27,691 nt of DNA from positions 1 to 27,691 of IMG/VR virus record IMGVR_UViG_3300039191_000363; one strand, 5' to 3'. The notes beneath the pieces are model-generated. The model did not search any database and was not told where the DNA came from. It saw only the letters and a program-made list of their open reading frames with translations. Below, one piece after another: positions 1,918-27,677 of this stretch. The first letter of the stretch is position 1. Every line of letters starts with the position of its first letter. The stretch is from a virus. A program made the translations under genes and the position numbers.

Positions 1918-2135
1918 AGCACTGCGCCTGGCATGAGTGCGGCCGGGCTTTCGAGCCCGCCGACCCCCGACAAGAGTTTTGCTGTCCCGACTGCCGCAAG
2001 GCACGGGGCGCATGGAAGGCCAGGCGCGGCGGTCCACTGGTGGGCATGCTGCTGTCTGGAGACGTGGAGGCGCTGATGGAAGCGAAGCGCCGCATCAAAG
2101 AGGAGATCAAGGATGCAACTACCAAAGCTGATTGA
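1914..2135 (+). CDS. Small zinc-finger protein (73 aa)
   Basis: It begins at GTG 1914 overlapping the upstream TGA. The first 25 residues hold a C-x4-C pair (CAWHEC) and, after a short linker, CCPDC followed by RKARGAWKARR. This is the layout of a treble-clef or zinc-ribbon knuckle often found in small phage proteins that bind nucleic acid. The rest is a basic and then acidic helix. A similar Cys pattern occurs in the protein at 4786-5079. The gene overlaps the exonuclease start by 23 bases, so co-expression is likely. Zinc binding is inferred from spacing only. Confidence 0.65.
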   Translation: MKHCAWHECGRAFEPADPRQEFCCPDCRKARGAWKARRGGPLVGMLLSGDVEALMEAKRRIKEEIKDATTKAD

Positions 2136-3102
2136 GGACATGGATTTTGCCACATATTTGGGCGATCCGATGCCGGACCCAAGCCTGACCAGCTCGCTTG
2201 TGAAAGACCTGCTGGGCACCGCCCCGCGCAAGGTCTGGCAGAACACCGCCAGGCTCAACAAGGACGCCGAGAGCGAGGAGAAAACGATCTTCGATCTGGG
2301 CTCGGCCGCGCACCGGCTGTTCACCGGCACCGGCGCGCCGATTGTCGAGATCGACGCTGCCGATTTCCGGTCGAAGGATGCGAAAGAGGCCAGGGACGAA
2401 GCCTATGCCCAGGGCAAGACGCCGATCCTGGCGAAGAACATGCCGCGCGTGCGTGCAATGGCCACCGCTGCACTCGACCAGGTGCGGGATAACCCCGAGA
2501 TCGGGCACCTATTCTCGGCCGAGAAGCAGGCCAAGCTCCTGCGCGAAGCCACAATCCTGTGGCAAGAGGCGGGCGTGATGTGCCGGTGCCGCCCTGACTT
2601 CTACTCGCCCGAGGAGAACGTGGTGATCCACTACAAGACCACCGGCACGGATATCTCGCCGGTGTCGCTGGCCAAGTTTGCCGCCAGCTCGGGCTGGGAC
2701 ATGACAGCCGCGCACTATCACCAGGGCGCGAAGCTGCTGACCGGCAACGCGCCGCGCCAGTATTTCGTGGTGCAGGAGACGGCCGAGCCGCACCTCCTGC
2801 TGACGGCCGAGATCGACAGCACGTTCCTGGAGACAGCGCTGATGCGCCGCGAGCGGGCGATGATGATCTGGGGCCGCTGCCTGCGCGAGAACCGCTGGCC
2901 CGGCATGATCTCCAAGACGATCACGCTGGAGTGCCCCGAGTGGCATGAGCGCAACCTGATCGCGGAGAAGGACGCCGAGGAAAGCGCCAAGGCGGCGGGC
3001 TCCGATCTCCTGGAGATGATGCGCACCTGGCAGGCACCCGAGGGCTGGCAACCGGCAGCGGTCCAGGGCTCGCGCCGTGACGAGAAGGACGTGATCGAAT
3101 GA
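2113..3102 (+). CDS. RecE-like (PDDEXK_12) exonuclease, unusual active site
   Basis: This 329-residue protein matches the C-terminal nuclease of RecE/exonuclease VIII, which resects double-stranded ends to 3' single strands for annealing. The expected motifs appear in order: His67 in GSAAHRLF, Glu145 before a strand ending ILWQEAG, Asp162 in CRCRPD, Lys175 in HYKTT and Gln204 in AHYHQGAKL, and a late W-P-G segment. The residue 11 positions after Asp162, normally Asp in the D-x-K motif, is His173 (codon CAC at 2629-2631). Start is ATG 2113 behind GAGGAG at 2101-2106. It is coupled by ATGA to the ATPase, so the two probably form a recombination module. The family call is strong; activity is open. 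Confidence 0.85.
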   Translation: MQLPKLIEDMDFATYLGDPMPDPSLTSSLVKDLLGTAPRKVWQNTARLNKDAESEEKTIFDLGSAAHRLFTGTGAPIVEIDAADFRSKDAKEARDEAYAQGKTPILAKNMPRVRAMATAALDQVRDNPEIGHLFSAEKQAKLLREATILWQEAGVMCRCRPDFYSPEENVVIHYKTTGTDISPVSLAKFAASSGWDMTAAHYHQGAKLLTGNAPRQYFVVQETAEPHLLLTAEIDSTFLETALMRRERAMMIWGRCLRENRWPGMISKTITLECPEWHERNLIAEKDAEESAKAAGSDLLEMMRTWQAPEGWQPAAVQGSRRDEKDVIE

Positions 3103-3989
3103 GCTTCACCTTCCAGACGGCCGAGCGCCGTAACACGCACATTCTGGTGGCCCTTGCGGGGGCCTCCGGTAGCGGCAAGACGTTCAGCGCCATGAACCTG
3201 GCAACGGGTATCTGTGGCGACAAGCCGTTCGCCGTGATCGACACCGAGGCAGGCCGGGCGCTGCACTATGCCGATCAATTCAACTTCAAGCACGCGGATT
3301 TCGCCCCGCCGTTCACGCCGGAGCGCTACCTGGAGGCGGTGAAGGCGGCAGAGAAAGCCGGGTTCGAGGCCATCGTGATTGACAGCATGAGCCACGAATT
3401 TGACGGACAGGGCGGGATCATGGAAATGGCCGAGGCGTCCGCCGTGAAAGGCCCCGGCGCATGGAAAGACCCGAAGATGCGCCACAAGAAGATGATGAAC
3501 GCCTTTCTCCAGGTGCGCGCGCATCTGATCTTCTGCCTTCGCGCCGAGGAGAAGATCGACATGAGCAAGAAGGATGATCGAGGGCGCGTGATCGTGGAAA
3601 ATGCGGGCTGGTTCCCGATCCAGGAAAAGCGGTTCATGTATGAAATGACCGCCAGCTTCACGCTCCAGCCTGGATCGCCGGGCGTGGTTGATCTCACGTT
3701 GCCGCACAAGGTTCAGGATCAGCACCGCATGAGCTTCCTTCCCGGTCGCCACATCACGGCCGAGGCAGGGGCCAAGCTCGCAGCCTGGGCGCGCGGCGAC
3801 ACGATCACGACACCCGACAAGGAGCTGTGGGACCGGGCTCGGCGTATCTCGCACGACGGGATCGAGAAGATCACGACGTTCTTCCAGAAGGTGGCCACCG
3901 AGGAGGAGCGCGCGGCTCTCCAACCCATCAAACGGGAGCTATGGGAGACTGCCAAAAAAGCGGACGAGAACCGTGGCGAGCTGGGCTGA
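3099..3989 (+). CDS. RecA-fold ATP-binding protein (AAA_24 / Sak4-like)
   Basis: This 296-residue ATPase has a Walker A motif GASGSGKT at residues 21-28, an acidic residue after a strand at about 48 (AVIDTEAG) and a Walker B strand AIVIDSMSHE at 91-100. Length and motif order fit phage RecA-superfamily core proteins of the AAA_24/Sak4 type, which promote single-strand annealing, often next to a RecE- or Cas4-like nuclease. Here it directly follows the RecE-like gene with an ATGA overlap, which supports a joint role in recombination-dependent replication or repair. Residues about 255-296 form a helical C-terminal part. The Sak4 label is inference; a generic phage P-loop NTPase is the safe call. 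Confidence 0.8.
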   Translation: MSFTFQTAERRNTHILVALAGASGSGKTFSAMNLATGICGDKPFAVIDTEAGRALHYADQFNFKHADFAPPFTPERYLEAVKAAEKAGFEAIVIDSMSHEFDGQGGIMEMAEASAVKGPGAWKDPKMRHKKMMNAFLQVRAHLIFCLRAEEKIDMSKKDDRGRVIVENAGWFPIQEKRFMYEMTASFTLQPGSPGVVDLTLPHKVQDQHRMSFLPGRHITAEAGAKLAAWARGDTITTPDKELWDRARRISHDGIEKITTFFQKVATEEERAALQPIKRELWETAKKADENRGELG

Positions 3990-4447
3990 TGCGATCCAAG
4001 ACGAGCGGCGAGCGACGCAGGATGATGCGCCGCTACGTCGAGCGATCCGAGCTGTGGTGCCGATGCTGCGCGCGGCCCATGTATTTCCTGGGGCTCGAAA
4101 GCCGAAACAGCTTCATCGGGCGCTGGCAGCAATACAAGGGGCGGGACGTTGTGCCGGACAAGCGCGCCTTGGCCAGCCTGATCGCAACCATCGACCACCT
4201 GATCCCGCAATCCAGGAACGGGACGCACCACCCCCGAAATCTGATGCTCATGTGCCAGGCGTGCAACGCCGACAAAGCGCACATGACCCCGAGCGAGTGG
4301 ATCGCGCATCGCGCCGCGACCGGGCGAGCCTTGAAGAAGGAGATCATCGCCAAGCTCTTGAAGCGCGAACGAAAGGCGATCCGCCAGATCGGCGGGCCGT
4401 CCATGATTTACACCCACCAAGCCACAAAGGAGAACCCCCATGGCTGA
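3989..4447 (+). CDS. HNH endonuclease (152 aa)
   Basis: The ATG at 3989 shares its A with the stop of the ATPase gene. The product has a basic N-terminus, a first Cys group CRCC at residues 24-27, the core D69-H70 in TIDHLIPQSRNG, Asn84 in HPRNLMLMC, and a second pair C89-x2-C92 followed by N93 and K96. This is a canonical zinc-stabilised HNH fold. Residues 110-152 form a basic helical tail that could bind DNA. HNH proteins in phages act as packaging partners, homing enzymes or recombination nucleases; the position after the RecE-like/ATPase pair favours DNA processing. No intron or intein is visible nearby. Confidence 0.85.
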   Translation: MRSKTSGERRRMMRRYVERSELWCRCCARPMYFLGLESRNSFIGRWQQYKGRDVVPDKRALASLIATIDHLIPQSRNGTHHPRNLMLMCQACNADKAHMTPSEWIAHRAATGRALKKEIIAKLLKRERKAIRQIGGPSMIYTHQATKENPHG

Positions 4448-4785: not shown

Positions 4786-5079
4786 ATGTCACGCGCACCG
4801 ATGGAGCCAAAACAACCGACGCCGCTCCAGCGCGGCCTGTGTGACTGGTGCGGCAACGCTACGCCCCAGGGGCGCGCTTATTGTGGCAAGGAGTGCCGCG
4901 TGGCCTATAACAACCTGCTGGCCCGCCAGGGCAAGGCCGTGATGCAGATGCTCAAGGTCTGGCGAAAGCACCGAGGCGCGAAGGGATCACGCGGCGAGGG
5001 CATGATCGGCCAAGTCGCCTCGCGCGTGGATGCCATGCTGGAGGAGGATCGAGAACGCAAGCGCCGCCTGCGTCAGTGA
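4786..5079 (+). CDS. Small zinc-finger protein (97 aa), basic C-terminus
   Basis: ATG 4786 follows the purine-rich GAGGAAAGGGG at 4770-4780. Residues 19-22 (CDWC) and 33-37 (CGKEC) form a C-x2-C...C-x3-C pair, a treble-clef-like knuckle with the same plan as the protein at 1914-2135. The remainder is a very basic helical region ([14 protein letters not shown], then [12 protein letters not shown]). The combination suggests nucleic-acid binding, perhaps regulation or packaging, but no family name is certain. It is the last plus-strand gene; its stop overlaps the opposing gene by 7 bases. Confidence 0.7.
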
Positions 5080-22758: not shown

Positions 22759-23112
22759 TCAGCCCGCGAGGAGCTGGTTCACCTGGTCGCCTACTTCGAT
22801 TTTGGCTTCTCGCAGTCGGGTGACTGCGGGCCATTCGCCGGTGCGGTTGCCGTCCTCGTCAGCGACGAACGCCTGCATATCCAGCTCTTTGATCGCGGCG
22901 TCGATCTCCTCGTTGAGCTTGGTGATCGCGCGCTCGATCCGGCGGCGCGAGCCCCGGTTCACCTTGGAGCGCTTAACCTCTCCCTCGATCAGTGCGGGCT
23001 GGCTGGCTTTCGCTTCCGCGATCTTTGCCTCCAGGTCTGCCACGGTTTCGTTGCTGTCCAGCTCGATCCCAAGGCCCTTGGCCTCCTCGATCAAATCATC
23101 CTTCTTGGCCAT
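22759..23112 (-). CDS. HeH/SAP-like domain protein (117 aa)
   Basis: The frame allows several ATGs; ATG 23112 is preferred because AAGGAG lies six bases before it, while ATG 23118 has the Shine-Dalgarno directly adjacent. Residues 1-35 (AKKDDLIEEAKGLGIELDSN then ETVADLEAKIAEAKA) fit a small helix-extended-helix or SAP-like fold, common in nucleic-acid binding. The rest is a charged helix (RRRIERAITKLNEEIDAAI) and ends in EVGDQVNQLLAG. In other podoviruses a small protein sits here between portal and scaffold. A role in head assembly is a guess. Confidence 0.6.
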   Translation of the reverse strand: MAKKDDLIEEAKGLGIELDSNETVADLEAKIAEAKASQPALIEGEVKRSKVNRGSRRRIERAITKLNEEIDAAIKELDMQAFVADEDGNRTGEWPAVTRLREAKIEVGDQVNQLLAG

Positions 23113-26996: not shown

Positions 26997-27067
26997 GCTG
27001 CCACCCCCGCCGCCTTCGCCCGCCCGCCGCAAAACGGGCATGGCTTGAGTTCGGGAATGTCAGTCAT
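26993..27067 (-). CDS. 24-residue Lar-like CPFCG mini-protein
   Basis: The start ATG 27067 overlaps the VRR-NUC stop, and the stop TGA at 26993-26995 overlaps the methylase start. The product is MTDIPELKPCPFCGGRAK plus six residues. ELKPCPFCGG is the first zinc-knuckle motif of restriction-alleviation (Lar) proteins, which normally have about 60 residues and two Cys pairs. Here only one pair remains, so it may bind zinc by dimerising or be a remnant. Double coupling supports translation. Confidence 0.5.
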   Translation of the reverse strand: MTDIPELKPCPFCGGRAKAAGVAA

Positions 27068-27483
27068 ATCATTCTCCACTTTTTAAGAGATGCCTCGGCA
27101 TCGGTCACTGACCGCACGACGGCATATTGCGCACCGCACCGGACAAGATCGCGCTGGATATCTCTTTGGGAATCGCTCTGGTTCGTCAGCGCCTTGACCT
27201 CCATGAAATACACGCGCCCTTGCCAGATGATCTCGATATCGGGCCAACCTGGCTTGGTGCCGAGTTTGCGGGCCTTGGCTATCTGCCGCGCCACCTCTGC
27301 CCCCCTCATGTCCACCTCGTTCGGGCTGTGGTGGTAGATCGCATCGCCCGGCAGTGCCACATCGAGGAGCTGGAGGATCGCCTTGTGGATCGGCCCCTCG
27401 CGGTCCTGGCGCGGCGCGCTGTGGTCGCCGTCGGCCTTGTAGAACGCCTGGAGCTGGGCGGCTGTCATGCGGTTGCCGGTCAT
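27064..27483 (-). CDS. VRR-NUC domain nuclease (139 aa)
   Basis: ATG 27483 overlaps the upstream TGA and gives MTGNRMTAAQLQAFYKADGD. The PD-(D/E)xK signature is Asp82 (KPGWPD) and Glu95-x-Lys97 (YFMEVKAL), followed by Gln107 (SQRDIQ), Gly117 and VVRSVTDAE. This is the VRR-NUC fold, often a standalone Holliday-junction or flap nuclease in phages. The N-terminal 30 residues are a small leader. It is coupled to the Lar-like mini-gene. The longer open frame upstream is a shadow of the preceding gene. Confidence 0.8.
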   Translation of the reverse strand: MTGNRMTAAQLQAFYKADGDHSAPRQDREGPIHKAILQLLDVALPGDAIYHHSPNEVDMRGAEVARQIAKARKLGTKPGWPDIEIIWQGRVYFMEVKALTNQSDSQRDIQRDLVRCGAQYAVVRSVTDAEASLKKWRMI

Positions 27484-27677
27484 AGCTTGTTCCTCGCCCA
27501 CTTGAGCGCATTGGCCAGACGGTCGCGTATGTCCTGGGTTGCGCTCGACTTCGACCCCTTGCACGGGCATGGAGCAAGCGCGACCAAGAGCCCGTGGATT
27601 TCATCGGCCGGAACGTAGATCACGGCCATGCCGTTCTCGATCTTGACGTGGCCCCGCTTGTCGTCGCGCAGGCTCAC
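27480..27677 (-). CDS. Hypothetical protein (65 aa)
   Basis: Start GTG 27677 has GGAGG seven bases upstream, and its TGA at 27480-27482 overlaps the VRR-NUC ATG. The product (MSLRDDKRGHVKIENGMAVI) has a beta-rich half with YVPADEIHG and a CPCK motif near residue 37, then a charged helical end. Two nearby Cys residues could bind a metal only with partners elsewhere. No family is recognised. Confidence 0.6.
   Translation of the reverse strand: MSLRDDKRGHVKIENGMAVIYVPADEIHGLLVALAPCPCKGSKSSATQDIRDRLANALKWARNKL

Follow-up and report, generated by a model that had tools for sequence, protein, structure and literature searches.

Few features of PD-(D/E)XK nucleases are as constant as the acidic residue of motif III, whose presence is a common test for telling active from dead homologues. 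Motif IV of the RecB-type members reads QhXXY, as defined in PMC6237815. Metal ligands have been described for MGME1, Cas4, and lambda exonuclease. In human MGME1, Mn2+ in the A-site is held by His180, Asp238, Asp251, and the main-chain carbonyl of Trp252, while Gln271 touches the phosphate, and activity drops dramatically upon the exchange D238N or D251N. The metal ligands of the Cas4 protein Pcal_0546 are Asp123, Glu136, and the carbonyl of Ile137. Alanine at Asp123, Glu136, Gln149, or Tyr153 leaves this protein almost inactive, and the canonical enzyme is most active in Mn2+. A Gln-to-Ala mutant of the Cas4 protein SSO0001 retained significant activity. In lambda exonuclease, metal A is bound by D119, E129, and L130.

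Departures from the canonical residues occur naturally within this fold: Asn or Gln may stand where the acid or the Lys is expected, or active-site residues may have migrated (PMC1189080, PMC1913061, PMC551604). The exonuclease analyzed here resembles these variants in its natural replacement of active-site residues; the accessible parts of the three papers name Asn, Gln, and migrated residues, but not His at motif III. In the literature covered, which contained few subscription papers and included the accessible parts of PMC6237815, PMC8093625, PMC3466216, PMC3118119, PMC1913061, PMC1189080, PMC4081073, PMC6199318, PMC4176176, and PMC551604, no paper was found that describes a PD-(D/E)XK-fold protein with a motif III His.

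The window, that is, the whole stretch of 27,691 nucleotides of viral DNA analyzed here (IMG/VR record IMGVR_UViG_3300039191_000363), encodes an exonuclease that shares with E. coli RecE (PDB 3h4r) the fold, the His of motif Ia, the Glu of motif I, the Asp of motif II, and the Lys of motif III, as well as a gene position beside an annealing-type protein. It differs from RecE in having His for the motif III Asp, Thr for the motif IV Gln, and YL for the N-terminal YH. The partners also differ, a Sak4-like AAA_24 protein in the window versus RecT for E. coli RecE (PMC8093625). MGME1 and Cas4, with their site formed by His, Asp, an acid, and a carbonyl and with their QhXXY motif, are the template for the metal site predicted below; in both of them, unlike in the window enzyme, the acid of motif III and the Gln of motif IV are retained.

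The RecE-like exonuclease of the window

The exonuclease gene (2113-3102, + strand) starts with ATG and encodes a protein of 329 aa. This protein matched the phrog_412 profile 'exonuclease VIII' (3.2e-56) and Pfam DUF3799 (PF12684; 1.8e-12, 48 bits versus a cut-off of 26). A sequence search of the PDB (E up to 1) gave E. coli RecE 3h4r as the sole match (5.5e-07), which was also the top solved structure for the AlphaFold2 model of the protein (mean pLDDT 89.5), with a Z score of 19.8 and an rmsd of 3.1 over 211 residues. With the profile match, the RecE fold, and an adjoining gene of the strand-annealing type, the protein is by descent a RecE-like exonuclease, and it probably works like its RecE-like relatives.

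The residues concerned and the adjoining gene are the following, where His-type rows are alignment rows with His at motif III, and groups A and B are the window clade and a metagenomic group, both introduced below.

2158..2160, + strand: codon 16, Leu in place of the His of the N-terminal 'YH' (Leu in 17/17 rows of groups A and B)
2311..2313, + strand: codon 67, His of motif Ia, kept (18/18 His-type rows); predicted second His ligand of the metal
2545..2547, + strand: codon 145, Glu of motif I, kept (18/18 His-type rows)
2596..2598, + strand: codon 162, metal-binding Asp of motif II (RPD), kept (Asp in all rows with a letter)
2629..2631, + strand: codon 173, CAC for His, replacing the motif III Asp and turning D-x-K into H-x-K (sequence and alignments)
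2635..2637, + strand: codon 175, catalytic Lys of motif III, kept (Lys in all rows with a letter)
2704..2706, + strand: codon 198, Thr in place of the Gln of motif IV, QhXXY (Gln in 0/18 His-type rows)
2716..2718, + strand: codon 202, Tyr of motif IV, kept (18/18 His-type rows)
3099..3989, + strand: AAA_24 (PF13479) / phrog_1366, Sak4-like RecA-type ATPase, its start overlapping the exonuclease stop

In the alignment to RecE 3h4r, in which residue positions were counted by hand, His173 lies opposite the Asp of D-V-K, 11 residues past the Asp of RPD and two residues before the Lys. The codon and this alignment confirm the original prediction that CAC at 2629-2631 places His opposite the catalytic Asp. 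The remaining RecB-type residues are present, namely His67 of motif Ia, which is the equivalent of MGME1 His180 by motif order, Glu145 of motif I, Asp162 of motif II, and Lys175 of motif III; that these four are kept had also been predicted and holds in 18/18 His-type rows. The additional assignment of Gln204 as the conserved Gln of the fold was wrong. Since QhXXY ends at Tyr202, the position of the Gln is 198, which is Thr in the window (T198-A-A-H-Y202, with the Tyr kept and the Gln absent), and Gln204 was rejected on the basis of this register. With the change of Gln198 to Thr besides His173, two canonical active-site residues are therefore replaced, not one. Judged by its motifs, the exonuclease is outside the PD-(D/E)XK signature, as it has His173 instead of an acid (D/E) two residues before the motif III Lys and no Gln in motif IV. 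The most fitting name for it is a His-type variant.

Conservation of His173 in group A

Twelve close IMG/VR loci were compared with the window. Ten full-length loci (L001-L010; 20-102 base differences) read CAC at codon 173, L011 still has His at codon 173 with a frame break in its exonuclease gene, and L012, the 20th contig, stops short of this codon. Altogether, His173 is present, besides the window, in 19/19 related IMG/VR contigs spanning codon 173, with 47-98% identity. The window clade including these 19 contigs is termed group A. The patterns by which its close members were found include residue 198. Because one pattern of the wider scan contained the His itself, a re-scan was done with a DNA pattern for E-C-P-E-W-(H/L)-E-R, which lies 100 residues off; it returned the identical 19 contigs and zero relatives with Asp.

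Of 14 group A members, 13 have CAC at codon 173 and one has CAT. The dN/dS values of the window versus the 13 other members were 0.11-0.32, and the group A exonuclease is under purifying selection. A canonical GAC codon that was misread by a sequencing error or changed by a private mutation, which was one of the readings offered initially, would need a single base exchange from GAC to CAC. The alignment with close homologues, originally suggested as a check, gave His in all 19 relatives covering the site, one of which uses CAT; together with the dN/dS values this refutes a sequencing error or private mutation, the probability of which is negligible. According to these alignments, His173 is a conserved active-site variant and no sequencing slip. 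The frame break in the 98% relative L011 (identical with L049 and L064; IMGVR_UViG_3300028217_000283) lies near residue 37-38 of the exonuclease.

His-type exonucleases outside group A

Twelve homologues from phage and plasmid records with 23-33% identity all have Asp at motif III (12/12). A scan for RxRPD-x10-HxKTT yielded 29 stretches, 19 of which are the contigs of group A. Nine of the remaining ten (L160-L167, L169) represent four distinct proteins with 28-31% identity to the window enzyme and are termed group B; the tenth, L168, was rejected as a chance match to the pattern. Group B is metagenomic and has H-x-K with Ser or Ala as the motif IV letter; it was found with a pattern that demands H-x-K, so that its His was preselected, which does not apply to its residues 16 and 198.

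A further His-type enzyme is exonuclease VIII of Dunaliella viridis virus SI2 (YP_009021007), which has H-x-K and Ala at the position of the motif IV Gln. It matches phrog_412 and DUF3799, and it had no IMG/VR match in the scan. Its nearest relatives found are the exonucleases of the Erythrobacter phages R6L and ZS04 (L153/L154; 35%), which read D-x-K and Gln and whose motif strand aligns with that of SI2 without gaps. SI2 has Leu at residue 16 when its frame is extended to an upstream GTG preceded by GAGGAG. Thus, the SI2 enzyme resembles that of the window in H-x-K, in a motif IV without Gln, in Leu at the YH position, and in a related portal, but it differs in its distant sequence (21% identity), in a very probably separate origin of the His, and in its Erf-like partner. 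The annotated start of the SI2 gene (L152, NC_023841.1, 21784-22974, - strand) at 22869 seems to be too far downstream; the GTG at 22974, with GAGGAG before it, would add the N-terminal Y...SSS segment of the family.

Scans of genome contigs gave no relative (2/2 scans). In tblastn searches of named phage records (500 / 513 / 915 records) and plasmids (23 / 7), all hits had less than 60% identity among the matches listed. From the named records, 12 + 7 homologues among the matches listed were taken up, and more distant His-type members are possible there.

Origins of the His

A quick tree was calculated from a 97-row set minus one row under 230 aa. The resulting 96 rows comprise 18 with His, 75 with Asp, two with Glu, and one with Ser, and the His rows, which include near-copies and two contigs entered twice, form one side of a branch with an SH-aLRT value of 99. 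A more careful tree of 43 of the 100 rows of the set described below, built without columns 173 and 198, needs three changes to His, two of which are forced by supported branches. In AU tests, whose groups were named by trait after the earlier trees were known and in which SI2 is on a long branch, a single clade of A, B, and SI2 was rejected (p-AU 1.15e-5), and A and B as one clade were not (p-AU 0.106). Hence, the trees indicate that SI2 very probably represents a separate origin of the His, and groups A and B could go back to one origin or to two.

Covariation of residues 16, 173, and 198

A 100-row set was used for covariation, from which nine near-copies (L001, L010, L011, L035, L051, L082, L108, L118, L126) had been left out and in which L153/L154 enter minus their first 150 residues. 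The motif III letters of this set are His in 18 rows, Asp in 79, Glu in two, and Ser in one. Ser at the motif III acid, with the Gln kept, occurs in L090 (2001-2822), and Glu in L073 (4001-4879) and L140 (2001-2858).

Position 198 is Thr in 11 of the 18 His-type rows, Ala in three, Ile in two, Ser in two, and Gln in none. In the Asp rows it is Gln in 68/79. Of 24 columns that are at least 85% conserved when the motif III residue is Asp, three (16, 173, and 198) and no others are changed throughout all three His-type groups. Leu at residue 16 was found in 0/76 Asp rows having a letter there, a conservation that is inflated because 61/82 non-His rows match a motif covering this residue; in 18 rows without His at motif III that are free of this bias, residue 16 is His in 14 and Leu in none. 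RecE also has Y-H at this position. By these counts, the set of His173, Thr, Ile, Ser, or Ala at 198, and Leu16 is recurrent in three phage exonuclease groups, with SI2 very probably acquiring it separately. Only 2 to 3 independent pairs are available, too few for the covariation to attain significance, and the link to the Gln may be loose, since the Gln is missing in 11/79 Asp rows and one Cas4 Gln-to-Ala mutant is active.

Annealing partner and shared portal

The AAA_24 ATPase encoded next to the window exonuclease is presumed to be its strand-annealing partner; Sak4 corresponds to PF13479 (PMC8093625). Gene content was searched in 27 His-type records, many of which are fragments: 17 of the 19 group A contigs, 9/9 of group B, and SI2. 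An AAA_24 homologue is present in 25/27; it is missing from SI2, which has Erf, and from one contig whose sequence stops at the exonuclease. Each of the 27 records has exactly one phrog_412 exonuclease, and a YqaJ exonuclease was found in 0/27 of these often fragmentary records. In SI2, the Erf-like annealing gene is located two genes on from the exonuclease.

The portal gene of the window has 68-69% identity to the portal of SI2. It is present in 11/17 group A records, the six misses all being shorter than 15 kb, and was weakly matched in 2/13 non-His records; it was found in 0/9 group B records and 0/2 Erythrobacter phage records. The related portals are accompanied by different recombination modules, an exonuclease with AAA_24 in the window clade (2113-3989) and an exonuclease of another lineage with Erf in SI2 (L152, 20692-22974), and both exonucleases are His-type despite these differing modules.

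Predicted metal site

Of the three original readings, namely an inactive enzyme, an altered metal site, or an erroneous or mutated base, the altered metal site is the best reading. It is now preferred because the other catalytic residues are kept and because the change recurs with two companion changes in a separate lineage. On balance, the sequence data favor an active exonuclease with a rebuilt, altered metal site. By motif order, the metal would be held by His67, Asp162, His173, and the carbonyl of residue 174. The smaller residue at position 198 would make room for the larger His, and Lys175 would still activate the water. The enzyme would then resect double-stranded DNA in the 5'-3' direction to 3' single strands, which would be handed to the annealing partner. 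His at motif III should bind Mn2+, Fe2+, Co2+, and Zn2+ better than Mg2+. Use of Mn2+ alone would prove little, since canonical Cas4 already works best with this metal.

If catalysis was lost along with the acid of motif III and the Gln of motif IV, the protein would be a nuclease-dead RecE-like protein, kept as a DNA-end-binding clamp or as a loader for the Sak4-like ATPase, while resection would be done by host or other phage nucleases. Such a loss would match the behavior of MGME1 D251N and of Cas4 with alanine at Glu136 or Gln149, in which activity is strongly lowered or nearly abolished, as well as the joint change of two catalytic motifs, and a binding role would also show purifying selection. 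However, His67, Glu145, Asp162, Lys175, and Tyr202 are kept in 18/18 His-type rows, across groups with only about 21-31% identity to the window, and position 173 is invariant in the 19/19 contigs of group A. Moreover, a second phrog_412 exonuclease or a YqaJ exonuclease was found in 0/27 of the records searched, yet an endonuclease-like gene exists in the window at 27064-27570. A dead nuclease is the main rival reading but is regarded as unlikely, at perhaps less than half the weight given to an active enzyme.

Catalytic His residues have been proposed for some nucleases of the PD-(D/E)XK fold, such as Vsr and BsoBI. Likewise, His173 could act as a general base or touch the phosphate in a mechanism with a single metal, held by Asp162 and Glu145, both of which are kept, and with a shifted role of Lys175. 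Against this stand the location of the side chain, which in MGME1, Cas4, and lambda exonuclease is the ligand position adjoining the carbonyl of the main chain that also binds the metal, and the Lys175 kept in every row, so that this mechanism appears distinctly improbable.

In its widest form, the preferred reading of an altered metal site would comprise at least two independent swaps of the Asp, the Gln, and the N-terminal His for a coupled set of His, a small residue, and Leu. These swaps would create a site of two His and one Asp in a nuclease that works on Mn2+, Fe2+, Co2+, or Zn2+ rather than Mg2+, and the related portal shared by the His-type lineages of the window clade and SI2 would suggest selection exerted by a host environment or a defence that both have in common. 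This scenario is put forward tentatively, as a conceivable one that falls somewhat short of an even chance.

A recurrent natural H-x-K with matching changes nearby would show how the site can be rewired, and recognition of the H-x-K version would stop such proteins from being written off as inactive. If active, these enzymes would supply recombineering with new partner exonucleases that differ in their metal requirements.

Other genes of the window

Scans for Rfam families and tRNAs gave no hit in the window. The AAA_24 gene is followed by an HNH endonuclease gene (4025-4447, + strand; frame open from 3827; Pfam HNH 5e-08). This gene is present in L055, L058, L060, L061, and L062 (72-94%) and in L067 and L068 (39%), it is reduced to its last 23 codons in L057, and it had no match in L065, L066, and L069-L072, in the manner of a gene that is gained and lost. 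The recombination genes are flanked by two small Cys-rich ORFs (1800-2135 and 4786-5079, both + strand), which both match phrog_20494, a family without assigned function, and may be duplicates of one zinc-ribbon-like gene. The small nuclease-like gene at 27064-27570 (- strand) matches phrog_824, a profile without assigned function, and the phrog_93 endonuclease profile, with no Pfam match. Its translation reads PD...EVK, and a canonical acidic motif thus seems to exist elsewhere in the window genome.
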